DNA from: a virus
Strand: one strand, 5' to 3'
Virus record (IMG/VR): IMGVR_UViG_3300006805_000008
Span: 1-41,579 of that record
DNA length: 41,579 nucleotides
The notes beneath the pieces are model-generated. The model ran no database searches, was not told the DNA's origin, and worked only from the letters and a program-made list of their open reading frames with translations. This document shows, piece by piece, positions 1,770 through 15,000 of the stretch. Within the stretch, counting starts at the first letter, position 1; the number at the start of each line of letters is the position of its first letter. Both the position numbers and the translations under genes were made by a program.

Positions 1770-2132
1770 ATGAGCGAACACACGCCGAGCCTTATCGAGA
1801 GGCTGACCGCTGCGACGGGGCCGAGCAGGGAGTTGGACCGGCTGATTGGGGACGCGGTCGGCGCGCCAATGGGCTACACCGGCGACGCAATCGGCCTCGG
1901 CTATGCAAGGTTCACGGAATCACTGGACGCTGCGCTTACGCTGGTGCCGGAGGGGTGGCATGCAATCATCGGGGGGCGTGAGAAGGTTGACGGATGGTGG
2001 CATTGCGCTCTGCAAGAGTTTCCACAGCCCTGCCGCCGCGTCCCGCCACAAGAGCCATACGTCATCATGGCAAAGACTGCCGCCCTCGCCCTCTGCATAG
2101 CAGCACTTCGCGCAAGGGAGCAGCAGCCGTGA
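1770..2132 (+). CDS. Phage ABA-sandwich domain protein, 120 aa
   Basis: Start ATG chosen because of GGAGG upstream and lack of overlap. The order D-R-L-I-G-D-A-V-G, S-L-D-A-A-L, G-W-H and the final A-A-L-A-L-C-I-A-A-L-R-A matches the phage ABA-sandwich family as I know it, a small early protein of unknown role found in many phages. Its stop overlaps the GTG start of the next gene, so the two are translationally coupled. Confidence 0.75.
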   Translation: MSEHTPSLIERLTAATGPSRELDRLIGDAVGAPMGYTGDAIGLGYARFTESLDAALTLVPEGWHAIIGGREKVDGWWHCALQEFPQPCRRVPPQEPYVIMAKTAALALCIAALRAREQQP

Positions 2133-2695
2133 GCGACCTGACCCCCACCCGCATCGCAGAGATCAGGTCGCTGGCTGAGAAGGCTACGCCGGGGCCGTGG
2201 GAAAGCGACAGCATAAAGTCCGAAGGCAGCTACGGCGTCGGTGACGAAACTTACGAGGGCTTCAATGCCTTCAAAGTGACCGATGCGAAAGGCAACACTC
2301 TCTTCGACACATTGAACTCAGACAACGGGGAGGTTCACGTCGAGTATGACGAGGATGGCGCAACGGCATGGGACGAGATTGGTCGTCGCAACATCGCCTT
2401 CACCGCCGCCTGCAACCCTCAGACCGTCCTCGCGCTACTCTCCCGGATCGAGGAGCTGGAGGGGGAGCGCACCGAGGCCGCGCGCAAGATGCGGGAGGCG
2501 CTGGGCAAGTATTGCGACGGCCGTGCCGATTGGCTGCTGCGATGCCGCGACGGGCTGGACAGTGACCGCCGAGCACAGCGTATGGCGCTTGAGCGGGCTG
2601 CCAATGAAGTCAAGCTGGTTTCCGAGCATATGCAGGCCCTACCCCTGGAGGCAGAATCCGCACAACCCAGAAAGGCCCCGCGCGATGACGAGTGA
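2129..2695 (+). CDS. Ead/Ea22-like protein, 188 aa
   Basis: GTG start overlaps the previous TGA. Residues about 8-25 (I-R-S-L-A-E-K-A-T-P-G-P-W) are the opening signature of Ead/Ea22-like phage proteins, and N-I-A-F-T-A-A-C-N-P near the middle, followed by L-L-S-R-I-E-E-L, is the other hallmark. The C-terminal third is a helix rich in charged residues. Ea22 is a lambda early protein from the xis-ea region with poorly understood effects on host cell cycle and lysogeny. The gene at 37917 shares the D-A-K-G and N-S-D segments and may be a distant paralogue. Confidence 0.75.
   Translation: MSDLTPTRIAEIRSLAEKATPGPWESDSIKSEGSYGVGDETYEGFNAFKVTDAKGNTLFDTLNSDNGEVHVEYDEDGATAWDEIGRRNIAFTAACNPQTVLALLSRIEELEGERTEAARKMREALGKYCDGRADWLLRCRDGLDSDRRAQRMALERAANEVKLVSEHMQALPLEAESAQPRKAPRDDE
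2679..2695. repeat. 17-bp direct repeat, copy 1
   Basis: CGCGCGATGACGAGTGA covers the start of the gene at 2685 and the stop of the preceding gene. The identical 17 bases recur at 2888-2904. Confidence 0.9.
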
Positions 2696-5130: not shown

Positions 5131-5262
5131 CTATTCACCCCACCATCTCCGTGTAGGCGGGAACCAATCCAGGAACGCTTGCCAAGCCCTCTTCCACCAC
5201 GGTCTGTCCCACTTGGGATCTCGCGGGTAGTCGAATTGGGGGATGTGGTCTAGGGGGTTCAT
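5131..5262 (-). CDS. Tryptophan-rich mini-protein, 43 aa, end of lysis cassette
   Basis: ATG overlaps the o-spanin stop as ATGA, which supports translation. Seven of 43 residues are tryptophan (18, 22, 23, 27, 33, 40, 41) and the second half is basic (P-W-W-K-R-A-W-Q and R-R-W-W-G-E). It has no signal peptide. The composition resembles membrane-interface peptides, but a role in lysis is only suggested by its position. I do not know a family for it. Confidence 0.6.
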   Translation of the reverse strand: MNPLDHIPQFDYPRDPKWDRPWWKRAWQAFLDWFPPTRRWWGE

Positions 5263-5483
5263 TGGCAGTCCTGCTCGCAGGCGCAGACGTAATCGCTGTT
5301 GTGCTGCTCGATCTGGGCCACGGTGCCCGGGGTGTCCTGCGGGCTGTAGGTAATGGGCTTGGCAATCAGGCAGTAGTCACTCGGGGCGGCGGAACCTGTC
5401 GCGCAGCCGGTCAGCCCGGCCAGTAGAAGGATCGGCAAGAGCGTCACGAGCGGCCTGTACGCGCCGCAGGGCTTCCAAGACAT
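5259..5483 (-). CDS. o-spanin-like lipoprotein (Rz1-like), 74 aa
   Basis: N-terminal signal with hydrophobic run L-V-T-L-L-P-I-L-L-L-A-G and lipobox L-T-G-C (cysteine at about residue 27), followed by a short periplasmic part with S-D-Y-C-L-I-A-K-P-I and V-C-A-C-E. It would be anchored in the outer membrane and join the i-spanin to fuse inner and outer membranes at lysis. Its 5' end overlaps the i-spanin gene by about 107 bases in another frame, the usual Rz/Rz1 arrangement. The cysteine-rich ending is common in such phage lipoproteins. Confidence 0.8.
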   Translation of the reverse strand: MSWKPCGAYRPLVTLLPILLLAGLTGCATGSAAPSDYCLIAKPITYSPQDTPGTVAQIEQHNSDYVCACEQDCQ

Positions 5484-5604
5484 CCGATTGTCCTTTTGCT
5501 ACGGCCTCCGCTGCCCCGGCATCGATCAGCCGCTTGTTGCCAAGATAGCTCGCCAGGCTTCCAAGGAGACTGACGAGGCCGGTGAGCAGCGAGAGCCAGG
5601 GCAT
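5377..5604 (-). CDS. i-spanin-like membrane protein (Rz-like), 75 aa
   Basis: One N-terminal membrane segment (residues 3-20, L-S-L-L-T-G-L-V-S-L-L-G-S-L-A) and a helical, charged remainder (about 28-75) that would lie in the periplasm. Short for an Rz protein, but the place and the embedded overlapping lipoprotein gene fit a two-component spanin. Start ATG shares bases with the stop of the holin-like gene (TAATG). Expected to act in the final, outer-membrane step of lysis. Confidence 0.7.
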   Translation of the reverse strand: MPWLSLLTGLVSLLGSLASYLGNKRLIDAGAAEAVAKGQSDVLEALRRVQAARDALADPSTGRADRLRDRFRRPE

Positions 5605-5762
5605 TACTTCTTCGCCACGACGTTCTTAACGACATCCTCGATCTTGGCGATCCATTCGTCGTCGGTGGTGGTCGGGGTGAGCTTGGCAAGCACTGCCAGC
5701 AAGGCGAGGAGGTTCACGAGCGCAAGGCTCAGGACTTCCCAATGTTCAGCAATCCACTGCAT
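5604..5762 (-). CDS. Holin-like small membrane protein, 52 aa
   Basis: Start at 5762 is preceded by GGAG six bases away; an ATG at 5774 in frame has a poorer site. One hydrophobic segment (residues 8-28: W-E-V-L-S-L-A-L-V-N-L-L-A-L-L-A-V-L-A) then a short soluble tail with L-T-P-T-T-T-D-D-E-W-I-A-K-I. Small proteins of this shape are common next to phage spanin genes and are often called holins, but one membrane segment does not prove it. Confidence 0.65.
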   Translation of the reverse strand: MQWIAEHWEVLSLALVNLLALLAVLAKLTPTTTDDEWIAKIEDVVKNVVAKK

Positions 5763-5786
5763 TCTTAACTCCATCTTTCTGGTGAA

Positions 5787-5862: not shown

Positions 5863-6222
5863 CTAAGCGGCGTGCGTGCCTTCAACGCCGCGCGACATGC
5901 GGGCGCGGGTGCGATGCAGAAGCCAATGCAGGGCCTCTTCGAGCTTGGTCAGAGCAAGCGCGTTCTCTCGGCAGGCGAATTTGCCGCCCTGAAACGCGCG
6001 AAGCCTGTCAATCACGATGGCGATTAGCGCCTCGTGCGTCAGGCCGTTGACGCCCGCCTCATTAATCGGGCCATTCTGGAACTCGACCCTAGCTGCGGTC
6101 TTGTCGTCAAAGCCGGAAATCTCGTAGACGTGGTTAGCGCCTCCGTGGCTCGGCTCGTCCACAACGGTTATGGTCAGGCGGTCATTCGCAGGATTCACCT
6201 GATGCTCTGTAATCTTACGCAT
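5863..6222 (-). CDS. Acb2/Tad1-family anti-defence protein (cyclic-nucleotide sponge), 119 aa
   Basis: ATG at 6222 has AAAAGGAGT upstream. Residues 11-50 form a beta-rich region (N-D-R-L-T-I-T-V then G-G-A-N-H-V-Y-E-I), followed by F-Q-N-G-P (48-52), G-V-N-G (57-60), a helix L-I-A-I-V-I-D-R-L-R-A-F-Q (66-78), F-A-C-R-E-N-A-L-A (82-90), a second helix L-E-E-A-L-H-W-L (94-101) and the closing R-G-V-E-G-T (111-116). I recognise this order as the Acb2/Tad1 hairpin domain. Known members bind cyclic oligonucleotide or cyclic ADP-ribose signals made by CBASS or Thoeris and so blunt these defences. Which ligand this one binds cannot be read from the sequence. It lies at the head of the lysis cassette. 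Confidence 0.8.
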   Translation of the reverse strand: MRKITEHQVNPANDRLTITVVDEPSHGGANHVYEISGFDDKTAARVEFQNGPINEAGVNGLTHEALIAIVIDRLRAFQGGKFACRENALALTKLEEALHWLLHRTRARMSRGVEGTHAA

Positions 6223-6988: not shown

Positions 6989-7193
6989 CAACCGGCCTCG
7001 GGCCTTTGCCGCGCATGTAGTTCTCGAACTTCTTCGCCAGATCCACAGCCTTGTCGGGGAGTGAGCCGAACAGCCTTGCCATGTCGAGGCACACGTAGCG
7101 GCGCTGCTCTTCAATGCTCAGCTTCTCAAAGAAGGCTTGGTGGATGTTGTCCGGCTCCGGGTCGTCTTCGATGGTGATCGCGTCTTCTGTCAT
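6981..7193 (-). CDS. Hypothetical protein, 70 aa
   Basis: ATG overlaps the stop of the phosphoesterase gene (ATGA). Acidic N terminus, then two helices (A-F-F-E-K-L-S-I-E-E-Q and A-V-D-L-A-K-K-F-E-N-Y). Function unknown; its tight coupling suggests joint expression with the phosphoesterase. Confidence 0.65.
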   Translation of the reverse strand: MTEDAITIEDDPEPDNIHQAFFEKLSIEEQRRYVCLDMARLFGSLPDKAVDLAKKFENYMRGKGPRPVDD

Positions 7194-8299
7194 GACAGCA
7201 TCTCCGGTCGGACGGTCAGCCTTGAACCCTCGCCATGTTCCTTGTGCAGAACGATGACGTGCATACCTCGGGTGGAGCGGTATCCGGCGTTGTGCGCCCA
7301 CGCATCGGCAGGAGGAAGGACCCTCAGGGATTCCACGGTGCACCCGTTGTAATCCTGGATGGCCTTGTGGTGGATATGCCCGGTGAGCCACAGTCGATGC
7401 TCTGTCTGCCCCCAATCCGCAGCTCGGTCGGACGCCATGATCAGGGGAAGCTTGTCGGGCTTGGCTTCGTGGCCGTGATGCGTGCCGACCAGGTTCTTGC
7501 CAAAGCGGTAGTAGTGATAGTGCGACGGCGAGGTATCCACCGTCACCGCAGGATCTTCCTGAAAGATGATTGCCATGGCCTCGCGGAGCATGACGGCGGA
7601 TGATGGATCGTGGTTCCCCAGCTCCACAATCAGGTGCACCTTGGCGTGCTTTCGCTTGGCAGCCTTCACCATGTACCGGAGGCACCGGAACGCCACCCGG
7701 ACCATCTTCGGGTATCGGCTGTCAGAGTCGAGTTGATGCTTTGAAGCCGGGGTTACGCTCTCGTAGGAATCGTAGTGCAGGAAGTCACCGAGAACCGCGA
7801 TCAGGGCTGTCTCGGTTGCTGGGGCTGCGCTGACCAAGTAATCCGTTGCCGAGCATAGAAGCCGCTCCCCGATGGACAGGTCGTAATCCGCACCCGTCTC
7901 TTCATGCCAAGCCAACATTCCAAGATGGTGGTCTCCAACTGGATACACCGCCAGCAGGTCGCCGTTTACGGCCCGTGGGGGCTGTGTGGGCTTGGCCTTG
8001 GGTTGCTCTTCCGCAAACCCCCGGATGGCTTCCCTGAGGGCCTCTTCCTGCTGCTGCTTATCAGCGTCGGTCTTGATCCACTGTAGCTTTGCCTCACCCG
8101 TCACCGCGTCGTACAGGGTGGAGGTTCCCTTGATCCTGAATCCGTCCGGGGGAGTGAGCGTGTCGCTCGCCAGTCGGCTCTTCAAGGTAGAGATCGGTAA
8201 TCCTAGCTCTCGGGCTGCCGCTGCTTTGTTACCGCCGTGTCGGGCTACAGCATCCCGGTAGGTTTGAATGTCGTCGTGAGAAACTGGCTTGGCTGCCAT
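7190..8299 (-). CDS. HTH-calcineurin-like phosphoesterase, 369 aa
   Basis: N-terminal residues 8-45 form a helix-turn-helix (N-K-A-A-A-A-R-E-L-G-L-P-I-S-T-L-K). The rest is a metallophosphoesterase with the full metal set in order: D-H-H (123-125), G-D (171-172), G-N-H-D (228-231), H-H-G-H (274-277) and G-H-I-H (307-310). Such enzymes use two metal ions to split phosphoester bonds in nucleotides, nucleic acids or proteins; the substrate here is not known. The same fusion recurs in many phages next to structural genes. The HTH may bring the enzyme to DNA. Confidence 0.85.
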   Translation of the reverse strand: MAAKPVSHDDIQTYRDAVARHGGNKAAAARELGLPISTLKSRLASDTLTPPDGFRIKGTSTLYDAVTGEAKLQWIKTDADKQQQEEALREAIRGFAEEQPKAKPTQPPRAVNGDLLAVYPVGDHHLGMLAWHEETGADYDLSIGERLLCSATDYLVSAAPATETALIAVLGDFLHYDSYESVTPASKHQLDSDSRYPKMVRVAFRCLRYMVKAAKRKHAKVHLIVELGNHDPSSAVMLREAMAIIFQEDPAVTVDTSPSHYHYYRFGKNLVGTHHGHEAKPDKLPLIMASDRAADWGQTEHRLWLTGHIHHKAIQDYNGCTVESLRVLPPADAWAHNAGYRSTRGMHVIVLHKEHGEGSRLTVRPEMLS

Positions 8300-8317: not shown

Positions 8318-8542
8318 TTAATGGGGAAAGTTCGGGGGAGTTGTCCCGGAGAAGAGCGCAGCAACCTTCCCCCCAAGACCACCGGAGACAGCGGCGAGGG
8401 CCATGTAGATCCCTCGCGCCGTCCACCGGGTTTGCTGGAGAGTCTGAACCGTGCTGTTCAGTGCGTTCACGCTGTTGTTGAGCGTGCGGACTTCTGACCG
8501 GAGGCTTCCGATGGCCTCCGAGATTTCGTCAATCCCGCCCAC
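8318..8542 (-). CDS. Coiled-coil membrane protein, holin candidate, 74 aa
   Basis: GTG starts one base after the protease gene's TAA, with AAGGCAAGGGGG upstream. Residues 5-38 form a coiled coil (I-G-S-L-R-S-E-V-R-T-L-N-N-S-V-N), then one membrane segment (about 44-64, I-Y-M-A-L-A-A-V-S-G-G-L-G-G-K). Proteins of this shape are sometimes listed as phage holins or virion-associated membrane proteins. I favour a membrane role but cannot choose. Confidence 0.65.
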   Translation of the reverse strand: MGGIDEISEAIGSLRSEVRTLNNSVNALNSTVQTLQQTRWTARGIYMALAAVSGGLGGKVAALFSGTTPPNFPH

Positions 8543-8543
8543 G

Positions 8544-9161
8544 TTACGCCCCCTTGCCTTTGCAGGCCGGGAGAACGGTGACGGGCGTGATGAGGGAGTT
8601 GTTTCCGCCCATGCCGCCGAGAACGATGCCGCGCACACGTCCGCGCATGTCAAAGACGCCAGCGCCGGAATCGCCGCCCTCCCAATCAGCACTGACGCTG
8701 ATCGTCGGCTTGACTTCCATCGGCATTCCCGGGGGGAGGAATGCAGCCTGCGAACCAAGGCTGTCAGACCCCGCAACAATCCCCTCAGTCAGCACGAAGC
8801 GAAGCAATCCGGGATTGCCAAGGGTAAACACCCGCTCGCCAAGCTGGAGCGGCTTGCAGTCGATGACCGCAGCGAACTTCGCGGGGCTTTCCAGTCGCAG
8901 GAAAGCCATGTCGCTTTCCTCGTCAATCCACTCAACGGAAGCGACCGCCACATGACCGTCGTAATATTCAATGTCGAAGAGATCGCCGCCGCGCACCACA
9001 TGCGCCGCAGTCAGAATCAGGTCTTTGGAGATGACGGTCCCGGAGCCGTGCCCGGTGTTGTCGGACACCTTGACCGCTGTATCACGCAGATCAACAAATG
9101 ACGGCAAGCCCGCACAGGCAGTCAGCAACGCAAGCAGACAAGCGACAATATAGGCGCGCAT
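8544..9161 (-). CDS. Lipoprotein trypsin-like serine protease, 205 aa
   Basis: Lipoprotein signal (A-C-L-L-A-L-L-T-A-C, lipobox cysteine 16). Then a chymotrypsin-fold protease: G-H-G-S-G-T-V-I (37-44), T-A-A-H-V-V with catalytic His54, S-D-M-A-F-L with Asp84, and G-G-D-S-G with Ser165, all at the expected distances for an S1-type peptidase. Acts outside the cytoplasm, anchored to a membrane. Phage genomes seldom encode such a protease; it may cut envelope proteins at lysis, block superinfection, or change the lysogen's surface. AAGGAA precedes the ATG. Confidence 0.85.
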   Translation of the reverse strand: MRAYIVACLLALLTACAGLPSFVDLRDTAVKVSDNTGHGSGTVISKDLILTAAHVVRGGDLFDIEYYDGHVAVASVEWIDEESDMAFLRLESPAKFAAVIDCKPLQLGERVFTLGNPGLLRFVLTEGIVAGSDSLGSQAAFLPPGMPMEVKPTISVSADWEGGDSGAGVFDMRGRVRGIVLGGMGGNNSLITPVTVLPACKGKGA

Positions 9162-9266: not shown

Positions 9267-9674
9267 GTGAAATCTCTTGTTGTGGCGCTGTGCGCGCTCT
9301 CGATCTCAGGTTGCTCGGAATTGAGTCGTCAGCAGTCCTGTGATATAATGGGCTGCATGGACAAGTTCGTAGAAAACATGTTCCTCCCCAAAGAACCCGC
9401 CACCGAGCCGGGGCGTGACCCGTGGGGCCGTCGCTATCCACCGCAATGCACGCCGGAGGCGCTTGCGGCGGTGAAGATCCCGATTGTCCGCGTCAGCCAG
9501 TCCTTCCTGGACAAGGCCACCAAGTCCAAGAACCGATACGGTGTTTACCTCCCCACCGGGGCGATGGCGGTCAGGAACGATCTGACCGGCGCAATGCTTC
9601 AAGGCGTCATCGACCATGAGGCTTGCCACTACATCATGAAGCAGCTCACCGGCTCGCCCGAGTGGCACAAGTGA
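9267..9674 (+). CDS. HExxH lipoprotein, possible small metallopeptidase, 135 aa
   Basis: GTG at 9267 is chosen because it gives a full lipoprotein signal (L-V-V-A-L-C-A-L-S-I-S-G-C, cysteine 16); the ribosome site is poor. Near the C terminus D-H-E-A-C-H-Y-I (116-123) is the HExxH zinc-protease motif. The protein is short and a third metal ligand is not obvious. It is the only plus-strand gene among late leftward genes, and lies convergent to the fibre gene, divergent from the serine protease. Late lysis factor or accessory gene expressed from a prophage are both possible. Confidence 0.65.
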   Translation: MKSLVVALCALSISGCSELSRQQSCDIMGCMDKFVENMFLPKEPATEPGRDPWGRRYPPQCTPEALAAVKIPIVRVSQSFLDKATKSKNRYGVYLPTGAMAVRNDLTGAMLQGVIDHEACHYIMKQLTGSPEWHK

Positions 9675-11623: not shown

Positions 11624-13096
11624 TTATCGTGCGCCGGTCGGGGCTGTTTCGTTCTCTCGCCCGTAGATCAGTTGCAGGGCGCGAAGCACCATCGCCCGCG
11701 CCTCTGGACGCAGGTTTTCCAGGACCGGGGCGTTCCGCTTGTTCTGCTCATAGAGCGGCGAGCGCATGCGAAGCATCTCGTCAAGATCCTTCGCGGCACG
11801 CTGAGTAATCCCCGCCCCGATCTTCCGGGCGGTCATGCCGATGGCCGCCGGAGCCCCAGCCCCAGCAACGGCACCCGGCATCCCTCCAAGCAAGTATCCG
11901 GCACCCGACCCGAACATGCTCGTCATGGCAGAGCCAAGCCCGCCCCCGCCGCCGAAGAGATTGCCGACATACCGGGCAAGGTTTGCGCCAAAGTCGCCGC
12001 GAACCGCCCGCTCAAGTACGGCTAGTTCTTCCTTGGAATACCCACGGGTGCGCTTGTCGTTCTTGAGGATGGAGTTGAGGAGTTGCCGAGTCCGGTTGTC
12101 GAGGTTAAGCCCGGAGTTTGCGGCTGCTGCGTCAATCTCGGCTTGGGTGATTGCCCCGCTAAGGTCTTCTGACCTCTTTGCTGCGGCGTAGTTTCCCCGA
12201 GCATCATTGATGATGGGCGGGACGGAGGAAGCGGGTCCAGCCACAACACTCTTCGGATCAGCCGCCACCAGAAATTCATCGATGGCAGAAATGACCCTCG
12301 ATGCCGCCGCTTGCTCTGTTGGATTGCTAAAGTCTCCGGCGGCCTTCTGGAGGGACTTTCGGAGGGTGATGAAGTTGTCAAGGCTGGCAACTGACCCCTC
12401 TGGGGGCTGCTTGACCCTGGAAAGTAGGGAAAAAGTTTTGGGAGCGGTTTCGGCAAAGAAGCCTTCGGCTTCGAGGGATCGCGTGATGTCATCCCCAAGA
12501 GACTTAAGCGAGTCCGCCGAATAGTCAACCCCCAGGTTCCTTGCTTGAGTAAACCCGGAAGACGCGGCGGCCTTAAGCTCTTCGATGGTGGGAACCTTTG
12601 GCGTGCCCATTTTCAGGGACTTAAGGCTCCCCGGGACAATCGCTTCCGCCGCCCGCACCCCCGGCCCCATCGGCGTGAAAGTCATGCCCAGCTCAGCCGT
12701 GCGCCTGATACCTTCCGGGCTTTCCGGGTTCAAATTGCCCATAGCCACGTCCCCGGGGGTCATCACGGCCCGCTTGACGGCTCCCAGAAGGCCCGCGTCG
12801 GGGTCGAAGTAATTCTCCCCGGTTGCCTCCACCTTGCTCATGGGAAGCATGGTGCCGCGATGAATGCCCTCCGCCGGCATGGTCTGGCCGCGAGACTGGA
12901 TCTTGGCAATCTCGCCCTGAGACTTCTGCGTCATGCGCAGGCTCCCAAGCCCCAGCCTTCCGGAAGCCACAGACTTGAACTCATCGACCGTCAAGCGCTC
13001 CGACTTCAGATAGTCGTCAATGTCCTGCTCCGGCGCGTTCTGTGCGAGCATCTTCTGGACGTTGCGTTTGATGCGGTCGAAATCGTCAGCCATCAC
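11624..13096 (-). CDS. Ejection or internal virion protein, 490 aa
   Basis: Long helical protein without signal peptide. Residues about 375-425 include a glycine- and alanine-rich hydrophobic stretch (L-F-G-G-G-G-G-L-G-S then Y-L-L-G-G-M-P-G-A-V-A-G-A-G) suited to crossing a membrane. In P22-like phages the genes after head-closure and needle genes encode proteins ejected with the DNA (gp7, gp20, gp16); place and composition fit that role. No lytic transglycosylase motif was seen. Two adjacent ATG codons start it, overlapping the previous stop. Confidence 0.6.
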   Translation of the reverse strand: MMADDFDRIKRNVQKMLAQNAPEQDIDDYLKSERLTVDEFKSVASGRLGLGSLRMTQKSQGEIAKIQSRGQTMPAEGIHRGTMLPMSKVEATGENYFDPDAGLLGAVKRAVMTPGDVAMGNLNPESPEGIRRTAELGMTFTPMGPGVRAAEAIVPGSLKSLKMGTPKVPTIEELKAAASSGFTQARNLGVDYSADSLKSLGDDITRSLEAEGFFAETAPKTFSLLSRVKQPPEGSVASLDNFITLRKSLQKAAGDFSNPTEQAAASRVISAIDEFLVAADPKSVVAGPASSVPPIINDARGNYAAAKRSEDLSGAITQAEIDAAAANSGLNLDNRTRQLLNSILKNDKRTRGYSKEELAVLERAVRGDFGANLARYVGNLFGGGGGLGSAMTSMFGSGAGYLLGGMPGAVAGAGAPAAIGMTARKIGAGITQRAAKDLDEMLRMRSPLYEQNKRNAPVLENLRPEARAMVLRALQLIYGRENETAPTGAR

Positions 13097-14250
13097 TCAA
13101 GCCCATACTTAGATTTGAGATCATTGCCCGGATTGCTGGTCGCGCCCAACTCATAGCGCGGCGGGCCGCCGCCGGGGCCGTGCACAATGTCCATGTAGAT
13201 ATTGGCGAGGCGGCGAAGGTTGAACTCAAACTGCTCCACCGTCTGACTTTGCGCGAGGGAGCCGTAAGCGGCCTGAAGGTTCTTGTTCTCGAAGTCGCTG
13301 ACCGGGCCTAGCGCGCCGCCAGTCGGTGAGTTATCGCGCATCTGCTGAAGGCGGTCGAAACCGATGCTGGACTGAATGCCCAGCAAGAGGTTTTGCATGT
13401 CATTGGCATTGGTTGCCGGAACATCCTTCAGAAGGCTGCCGACACCCGTCGGTGACAGACCCTTGTAGTTTTTGGCAAGGTCAAGCGCGCGACCGATGTC
13501 GGTCAAAACAACATCGCCCTGAACCTGTTTCTGCGCCTCCTTGGCCTGCTCCTTCTGCTGGCCGGCCTGCGCCTCGGTCGCCGCCGGAGAACCGGGGACG
13601 GCCTCCATCATCACGCCCTGCGGAGTTTCAACAAGGCGGAAGCCGGGCGGGATGTTGCCATAGTCCTTGTTGTAAATCGTGGTGCTGGCGTTGGACGCGC
13701 CGGCCTTGCGGAGTTCGTTCTGGTAGTCGAAAAACGTGCCCGGATACCCCTGGCTGACGGCAAACTGATACTCCTGCACGTCAGACGGCATCTCGTTTTG
13801 CTTCGGCTCTTTCGTCGCATAGTCCAGCAGGAACCCAGCCCCCTCTCCCGGAGAGGCATACTGTAGCGCCTGCTGAAGCAGGGCCTTGCGGGTAGGGTCA
13901 AGATCACTGAACAAACCCGGGGTCTGCTCAGTGGGGGCTCCGCCGAACTGTGCTTGAGACATGCCGTTTGCGGGGGCCTGGACTTCCCCACCGAAGAGCT
14001 TCGGCAGGCCGGCTTTCCACTGCGCCTCCATCTCGGTCTTGCGCTGGTTCTCGGCGCGACGTGCTTCCGCCTCTTCCTGGGCAAGCTGAAGGCTCTGCTC
14101 CTGAAGCTGACGCCGGATCTGCGCGTCTTGCATGGACTGGTAGTTCTGCGCGCCCATCTGAGCGCCCTGCGCCCATTGGCCCCTTGGGGCGGCGACGGCT
14201 GAACCAAGAACGGATGCGATGGCGGCCCAATTCGGGGAGAACGACACCAT
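13093..14250 (-). CDS. Ejection or internal virion protein, 385 aa
   Basis: Helical N-terminal third with a glutamine- and glutamate-rich coiled coil (residues 42-75). The C-terminal third has L-L-G-I-Q-S-S-I-G-F-D-R-L-Q and D-N-S-P-T-G-G-A-L-G-P-V-S, a signature seen in large internal virion proteins of many phages. It overlaps the following gene by four bases. A DNA-ejection or tail-channel role is inferred from place. Confidence 0.65.
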   Translation of the reverse strand: MVSFSPNWAAIASVLGSAVAAPRGQWAQGAQMGAQNYQSMQDAQIRRQLQEQSLQLAQEEAEARRAENQRKTEMEAQWKAGLPKLFGGEVQAPANGMSQAQFGGAPTEQTPGLFSDLDPTRKALLQQALQYASPGEGAGFLLDYATKEPKQNEMPSDVQEYQFAVSQGYPGTFFDYQNELRKAGASNASTTIYNKDYGNIPPGFRLVETPQGVMMEAVPGSPAATEAQAGQQKEQAKEAQKQVQGDVVLTDIGRALDLAKNYKGLSPTGVGSLLKDVPATNANDMQNLLLGIQSSIGFDRLQQMRDNSPTGGALGPVSDFENKNLQAAYGSLAQSQTVEQFEFNLRRLANIYMDIVHGPGGGPPRYELGATSNPGNDLKSKYGLE

Positions 14251-14253
14251 GTC

Positions 14254-15000
14254 TTAGACTCCCAGGAAATACGGCGCGACTTGAAGGGCGGTCCCAAGAA
14301 CCTGACCGAAGGGCGAATACCCGCTGCCCTGAACCGGCTGCGTTGCCTTGGTCGTGGCCCCGAGGTTTCCCCCGGCAAGCGACTGAGCAAGGGCGATCGC
14401 GTTCGCCGCCGAGTTCTGATCGAAGTTCCAGCGGTTGATCCCCTCGTTGATCTGGTCCTGAAGCTGGCCCTGGCGCTGCTGTCCGACGTTCAGCAATTGG
14501 TTGGCGTCGTAATAGTCCTGCTGGGCAAGGGCTGGGGCATACCTGGCGGCGGCGTCCTGGTATCCGCGCTCCTGAGCGTAGTTCTGATACCTCAACCCAC
14601 CGAGAGCCTCCGCAACAGCCGCGTCATGCGAGCCGGACCCATACCGCCCCGATGCGGCCTTGTTGGCGTTCACATCGTTCCTGGCCGAGCGAAGGACGGA
14701 ATCAAACCCGGGAGCCTCGGCGTTGACGTATTTGCCGGCGAGGACATCCCCGTAATAGCCCTTGGCCGAGTCAGTGAGCGGCGATCCAGCCTGCGCGCGT
14801 TGAGCGATCATGCTCCACGCGGAACCAGTCTCGGGGGAGACGGGCGCAACGGTTTCGCCGGGGTAGTACTGATAATTCAGACCGCCCGACTTGTACAGGT
14901 TCTCCGCGTCCTTGATGGTGGTATTCAGAAGCGGCTGCGACGGCTTGTAGGGCTCCGACGTGCTGGTCGTCTTCTGCGTCTTCGGCTCGTTATCGTCCAT
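14254..15000 (-). CDS. Ejection or tail-assembly protein, 248 aa
   Basis: N terminus polar; residues 105-165 hold A-A-S-G-R-Y-G-S-G-S-H then V-A-E-A-L-G-G-L-R-Y-Q-N-Y, which I know from podophage and other internal virion proteins. The C-terminal part is hydrophobic (L-A-Q-S-L-A-G-G and L-Q-V-A-P-Y-F-L). It probably belongs to the same ejectosome as the two genes downstream. Confidence 0.65.
   Translation of the reverse strand: MDDNEPKTQKTTSTSEPYKPSQPLLNTTIKDAENLYKSGGLNYQYYPGETVAPVSPETGSAWSMIAQRAQAGSPLTDSAKGYYGDVLAGKYVNAEAPGFDSVLRSARNDVNANKAASGRYGSGSHDAAVAEALGGLRYQNYAQERGYQDAAARYAPALAQQDYYDANQLLNVGQQRQGQLQDQINEGINRWNFDQNSAANAIALAQSLAGGNLGATTKATQPVQGSGYSPFGQVLGTALQVAPYFLGV

Follow-up and report, generated by a model that had tools for sequence, protein, structure and literature searches.

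A gene on the minus strand at positions 8544-9161 of the window, which here denotes the entire 41,579-nucleotide stretch of virus record IMGVR_UViG_3300006805_000008, almost certainly encodes a single-domain serine protease of HtrA/DegS/MarP fold that is secreted and anchored by a lipid. Its sequence points to an apparently intact enzyme of the DegP/DegS/MarP type, with a predicted anchorage at the periplasmic face of a membrane. It is a divergent member of the phage protease family PHROG 9683, which is found chiefly in phages of Alphaproteobacteria. The role favored here, with a probability of about 0.4, is that of an envelope protease that helps lysis.

The protease gene and its product

The features of the gene are as follows.

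8544..9161, minus strand: predicted lipid-anchored HtrA/trypsin-fold serine protease, 205 aa, single domain
9114..9161, minus strand: lipoprotein signal peptide MRAYIVACLLALLTAC (rule-based), predicted lipidated Cys16, +2 residue Ala
9000-9002, minus strand: codon of catalytic H54, read in the sequence
8910-8912, minus strand: codon of catalytic D84, read in the sequence
8667-8669, minus strand: codon of catalytic S165, read in the sequence
8856-8858, minus strand: codon of C102
8562-8564, minus strand: codon of C200

The open reading frame runs uninterrupted from the ATG at 9161 to the TAA at 8544. A previous sequence-only reading had given these coordinates correctly and omitted the strand. 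The plus-strand frame of the same segment is interrupted by a stop codon, codon usage across it favors the minus frame, and an AAGGA resembling a ribosome-binding site is located ∼10 nt 5' of the ATG. The Pfam profile PF13365 (Trypsin_2) matches residues 39-179 over profile positions 1-144 of 144 with an E-value of 4.9e-21 and a score of 76.4 bits versus a cut-off of 27.6 bits, which rules out a chance open reading frame and places the earlier call of a serine protease far beyond the cut-off. The PHROG 9683 "protease" profile likewise matches (E 5.4e-20, 72.9 bits). No PDZ domain was present among the domain matches listed, and the protease domain extends almost to the C-terminus. His54, Asp84, and Ser165 all fall in the triad columns of the family alignment, and the triad proposed by the sequence-only reading is indeed intact. 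The active serine lies within the motif DSGA.

Other identities for the gene were considered. The virus record, of the IMG/VR type, carries terminase, portal, scaffold, and capsid genes, and phage genes lie on both sides of the protease; contamination with host DNA is thus unsupported, and the assignment to a phage holds. Phage proteases are usually regarded as capsid-maturation enzymes. Here a prohead protease is ruled out, as had been surmised, by the signal peptide and by the distance of ∼10 kb from the capsid gene. An anti-phage defense gene was set aside as well, since the PADLOC matches (RT-Protease_XI at 1.2e-8, LmuA at 5.6e-8, and also Avs1b and HamA) cover only the shared trypsin-like region and not the other domains.

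For the anchor, a rule combining a lipobox, a hydrophobic stretch, and a basic residue was applied to the 257 open reading frames listed for the window. Only three passed, namely the protease, an Rz1-like spanin, and an unrelated neighbor at 9267-9674. The lipobox of the protease is LTAC16, with cleavage assigned as MRAYIVACLLALLTAC/A, and is intact as originally described. Alphaproteobacteria are reported to lack LolB in the portion of PMC10787603 available, and therefore the +2 rule is an unsure guide to the final membrane.

The AlphaFold2 model of the protease, computed with 34 aligned relatives, has a pLDDT of 83.3 and a pTM of 0.78, with values under 50 for residues 136-140 in a loop that is absent from most relatives. 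Comparison with solved structures gave Z-scores of 24.2 for DegP, 23.9 for DegQ, up to 23.3 for DegS, and 21.8 for MarP. The three E. coli enzymes DegP, DegQ, and DegS thus share its protease-domain fold (Z 22-24, ∼2.0-2.5 Å over ∼170 residues for most chains), its triad, and its predicted periplasmic location. Unlike them, the window protease is without a PDZ domain, shows only ∼20-25% identity, and has a predicted lipid anchor together with the Cys pair of its own family. It accordingly falls outside the HtrA/DegP family sensu stricto, which is delimited by the PDZ domain. The best phmmer match in the PDB (E 2.6e-12) was to MarP (Rv3671c) from M. tuberculosis, likewise a single periplasmic protease domain held at the membrane. 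MarP differs, however, in its four-TM anchor, its role in acid stress, and its identity of 27-28% to the window protease. It is described in the available part of PMC6628586 as cutting the wall hydrolase RipA.

The HtrA-family fold could suggest envelope quality control, whereby a small DegP-like phage enzyme clears misfolded or mislocalized proteins during late expression or eases membrane stress. Such a role is very unlikely given the missing PDZ domain, the membrane anchoring, and the scattered distribution of the protein.

A protease family of rhizobial phages

A tblastn search of 50,697 named phage records returned 22 matches at E<=0.01, ten of which are Rhizobium or Sinorhizobium records, and some of which are apparently bacterial DegP/DegQ/DegS in records labeled as phage. 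The count agrees only in part with the earlier statement that such proteases are rare in phages, for as a family they are recurrent in rhizobial phages. An alignment of eight phage proteins, used for a pattern scan, yielded 77 viral loci which, after removal of seven exact duplicates and addition of the window protein, gave 71 unique rows. The triad His is present in 71/71 of these, the Asp in 66/71, and the Ser in 71/71, the last being part of the search pattern and hence not an independent observation. The loss of the triad in relatives that the sequence-only reading had set against its proposal was therefore not seen. The exceptions at the Asp column are four Glu and one Gly, all in relatives of the core set defined below, though the intact triad of the window protein rules out a pseudo-protease.

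Cys102 occurs in 61/71 unique rows. These 61 were taken as the core and the ten without it were set aside, such that C102 in the core is a matter of selection. A second Cys within the last 30 residues is found in 60 of the 61, the exception (L044) being cut by the contig end, and both cysteines are present in 34/34 rows of an alignment chosen from the C102 rows. Thirty loci came from a scan of genomes. Those that are most similar and clearly related belong to Hyphomicrobiales (Metarhizobium, Pseudohoeflea, Rhizobium, Chelativorans, Ensifer, Falsochrobactrum, and Shinella), and the remainder are weaker matches, mostly to longer proteins of Cyanobacteria and other groups. The window protease is therefore no orphan, as its family extends over named rhizobial phages, 77 viral contigs, and Hyphomicrobiales prophages, and the impression of an oddity confined to this one phage is not borne out.

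In a quick tree, from which six rows were left out, the window protease forms a long branch outside the core (SH-aLRT 93). Its best identity to any relative is 34%, and no close relatives were found, a pattern search with 11 matches yielding none. Residues Asp159 and Asp164 are unique among the 61 core rows, and its specificity may thus differ. Asp159 presumably lies near position 189 in chymotrypsin numbering and, as a guess, could favor Arg or Lys.

The N-terminus is hydrophobic (at least 1.6) in 69/71 unique rows, taking the form of either a lipobox or a signal/anchor helix. Lipoboxes and TM anchors alternate on the tree, with 4 to 5 changes among 54 to 56 rows, the lipobox states having been assigned by reading and 29 named rows having been left out of that tree.

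The named members of PHROG 9683 are p036 of Rhizobium phage 16-3, proteins of AP-16-3, RHph_TM3_3_14B, and RHph_X2_25, and gp099 of Sinorhizobium phage phiM9. They share with the window protease the same domain, a similar size, an N-terminal hydrophobic anchor, the triad His and Ser, C102 (window numbering), and a C-terminal Cys. Phage 16-3, like the window, keeps a phosphoesterase/exonuclease downstream, in its case several genes away. The window protease is 28-31% identical to these proteins and differs from them in having a lipobox rather than a TM anchor, DSGA rather than (Q/M)SGG at the active serine, and an extra loop of ∼11 residues near 133-145. Proteins of the 16-3 type, in addition, have Glu at the Asp column where the window protease has Asp. 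The phages that carry them have an ExbB-like gene behind the protease, for which the window gave no match.

The family is already annotated as "protease" or "trypsin-like" in public phages. In the portion of PMC10783043 available, a trypsin-like serine protease is listed, with no function stated, among the genes common to the "cluster N" T4-like rhizobial phages. That protein is the phiM9 family member. The accessible parts of PMC11409702, PMC10460002, PMC12429752, and PMC10783043 report no function for the family.

Gene neighborhoods in the window and its relatives

The genes of the window that bear on the protease are as follows.

8318..8542, minus strand: 74-aa coiled-coil and weak transmembrane protein directly downstream of the protease, GTG start one base past the protease stop
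7190..8299, minus strand: HTH and metallophosphoesterase "DNA repair exonuclease", PHROG 704, downstream of the protease
9267..9674, plus strand: 135-aa putative lipoprotein, HExxH (HEACH), lipobox ISGC, between the tail-fiber gene and the protease, divergent
5259..5483, minus strand: Rz1-like outer-membrane spanin lipoprotein, PHROG 1275 (E 1.1e-9), 3 kb downstream of the protease on the same strand
5377..5604, minus strand: i-spanin/holin-like membrane protein overlapping the Rz1 gene, PHROG 7198 "holin" (E 0.097, weak)
5604..5774, minus strand: 56-aa single-TM holin-like open reading frame upstream of the spanins, by eye from its translation

The window is that of a P22-like podophage, with a portal (PHROG 156), an SU10-type adaptor, a DNA ejection protein, a scaffold, and spanins. 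Likely ejection proteins are encoded at 13093-15000 on the minus strand (PHROG 2534 and 4287, a family of proteins "released from the phage upon host infection" and one of DNA ejection proteins). At 5863-6222 (minus), a protein whose C-terminal part matches the Acb2/Tad1 hairpin (PF24729, E 1.2e-5, slightly short of the cut-off) is possibly a sponge-type counter-defense protein, and the protein at 1994-2695 (plus) is Ead/Ea22-like (PF13935, E 5.1e-7).

The protease gene is on the same strand as the structural genes and the spanins, and no separate promoter was found on that strand in the window, the single site being on the other strand. No lysis gene lies directly upstream of the protease; the spanins are situated downstream, past the exonuclease, and no endolysin of the GH24, GH19, GH108, or Amidase_2 type was found anywhere in the window. 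The exonuclease has an N-terminal Fis-type HTH (PF02954) followed by the metallophosphoesterase-like domain. It has 46 relatives in viral contigs, and the protease was present in only one of the 21 of those records tested. The divergent lipoprotein at 9267-9674 is possibly a small zinc peptidase. No relatives of it were found in phages, viral contigs, or Pfam; a match in 1/43 records (E 0.004 over 55 residues, inside an 885-codon frame) was taken as chance. Its link to the protease is positional only.

The protease gene is accessory. It is present in 1/22 contigs related to the window phage through the terminase (66-100% identity in that protein), several of which are fragments. These 22 are the longer contigs among 80 terminase loci, just as the 21 exonuclease records tested are the longer ones among 46. 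L163, whose terminase is 100% identical, is the nearest relative; it is a fragment of 27.8 kb and, from its length, probably stops short of the protease region. With no match in 21/22 terminase relatives, lysis does not seem to need the protease. In the one that bears it, the order is tail fiber, endolysin-like, holin-like, coiled-coil/TM, protease, and adjoining exonuclease, where the endolysin, holins, and coiled-coil/TM protein were named by eye and the protease and exonuclease were not. In the window, by contrast, the gap between tail fiber and protease holds the opposite-strand HExxH lipoprotein. The protease of this relative is distant (54 bits; blastp at E 0.01 does not link it to the window protein); it keeps the H, D, and S, by eye, and is without a lipobox.

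An accessory distribution and a long branch are what a gene in decay, or one that benefits the host (lysogenic conversion) and plays no part in the phage cycle, might show. Either is highly improbable, however, for the triad, signal, and Cys pair are kept on that long branch, and the family is present in T4-like phages. Accessory distribution combined with a membrane anchor would also fit a moron for superinfection exclusion or receptor trimming, in which the anchored protease cleaves an envelope protein needed by incoming phages and so shields the infected or lysogenic cell. Several relatives do reside in Rhizobium, Ensifer, Shinella, Chelativorans, and other genomes. Against this rather unlikely role are the position of the window gene among late genes with no separate promoter found on its strand, and the occurrence of the family in the T4-like phages phiM9 and RHph_N34. 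This occurrence implies that the protease is not only a lysogeny gene.

Across the family, the protease tends to adjoin a lysis cassette and the PHROG-704 phosphoesterase, and in phages other than this one endolysin or spanin genes are often found upstream of it. Lysis genes are upstream in 37 of the 61 core loci, and small coiled-coil/TM genes and ExbB-like genes are found in 39 and 14, respectively. The phosphoesterase/exonuclease is downstream in 40/61 and upstream in 3. With HMMs, lysis genes were detected upstream on the same strand in 35/53 core loci having at least 5 kb of upstream DNA, as compared to 4/28 exonuclease-anchored control loci (Fisher p 8e-6); the HMMs were built from protease loci, which biases the control low, the loci are linked by common descent, and duplicates were kept among the exonuclease loci. 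Representatives of the lysis clusters match endolysin PHROGs 7 and 181 and, weakly, an Rz-like spanin (E 0.0011); that of the o-spanin-like cluster 11 gave no match and was named by eye. In phiM9 and RHph_N34 the protease gene stands alone near head genes, on the strand opposite them. The sequence-only reading had suggested that the enzyme might degrade colicin-like factors or surface receptors. These targets are unsupported, and the neighborhoods of relatives point rather to the lysis region, though not in those two phages.

In 14/61 core loci the protease is followed on the same strand by genes for an ExbB-like protein, a TM/β-sandwich protein, a third one-TM protein (cl9), and the exonuclease. 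One further core locus has the ExbB-like and TM/β-sandwich genes without cl9 or exonuclease, and another has the TM/β-sandwich protein and exonuclease only. The module loci are L071:6588-8698, L018, L026, L027, L036, L037, L046, L048, L051, L053, L058, L066, L068, L070, L073, and, by eye, L244; the order behind the protease is ExbB/MotA-like, single-TM/periplasmic β-sandwich, third one-TM protein. Of the 13 ExbB-like rows, ten reach E<=0.1 against PF01618, the best value being 2.3e-5; the fully listed row is under the curated cut-off. Against PDB profiles their alignment found, besides MotA (E 0.73), only two designed repeat proteins with a stretch that failed. The TM/β-sandwich protein, modeled as one helix plus β strands, has an invariant Asp at the helix start; no sure structural match to it was found (best E 5e-3), and PPC appeared in 1/13 rows. 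Neither alignment matched the window, in a search run without a positive control. No discussion of such a module beside the rhizobial phage protease was found in the accessible portions of the literature. The ExbB-like protein is weakly ZorA-like in PADLOC (best E 3.4e-5), which lends something to superinfection exclusion in that part of the family.

The same loci bear on the proposal that the enzyme is a partner-specific regulatory protease akin to DegS or MarP, activated by, or cutting, a neighboring small membrane protein and thus acting as a trigger rather than a degrader. It would be in keeping with a fold nearest DegS/DegP/MarP without a PDZ domain, with the 14 module loci, and with the presence of a small membrane protein behind the protease, in the window as in many relatives. 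The partner, however, is not one family, and in L019, L031, L043, L047, and L064 the exonuclease directly follows the protease, so we consider this role somewhat improbable.

A decidedly unlikely proposal is that phages encode an envelope machine of which the family supplies the proteolytic part. As built in rhizobial phages, this machine would comprise the protease, the ExbB/MotA-like channel, the single-TM/periplasmic β-sandwich protein, whose invariant Asp would occupy the ExbD/MotB position, and the further one-TM protein. Proton-driven motion reaching the wall or outer membrane could then bring or gate the tethered protease, for lysis or as an anti-superinfection sensor. The window phage would have a stripped form consisting of the lipid-anchored protease and its coiled-coil/TM partner, and perhaps the HExxH lipoprotein too.

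A possible role in opening the host envelope

According to the favored reading, help in lysis, the protease would be expressed together with the late genes of the minus strand, leave the cytoplasm through Sec, receive its lipid at Cys16, and stay attached to a membrane on the periplasmic side. We infer that it is catalytically active there and cuts one or a few host envelope proteins, such that the outer membrane would be loosened or a wall hydrolase freed, and the cleavage would aid the spanins and endolysin in completing lysis. If the host belongs to the Hyphomicrobiales, candidate substrates would be the N-terminal stretches that link outer-membrane barrels to peptidoglycan. Rhizobiales, as described in the available part of PMC10787603, are without Lpp and have outer-membrane barrels linked to peptidoglycan instead.

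Of these results, the neighborhood statistics and the ExbB-like module most deserve to be taken further. A recurrent family of anchored envelope proteases near lysis genes would imply that proteolysis serves some phages to dismantle or guard the diderm envelope. Should the enzyme act in lysis, it would allow one to test directly how phages breach envelopes from which Braun's lipoprotein is missing and in which the outer membrane is tied to the wall by barrel proteins.
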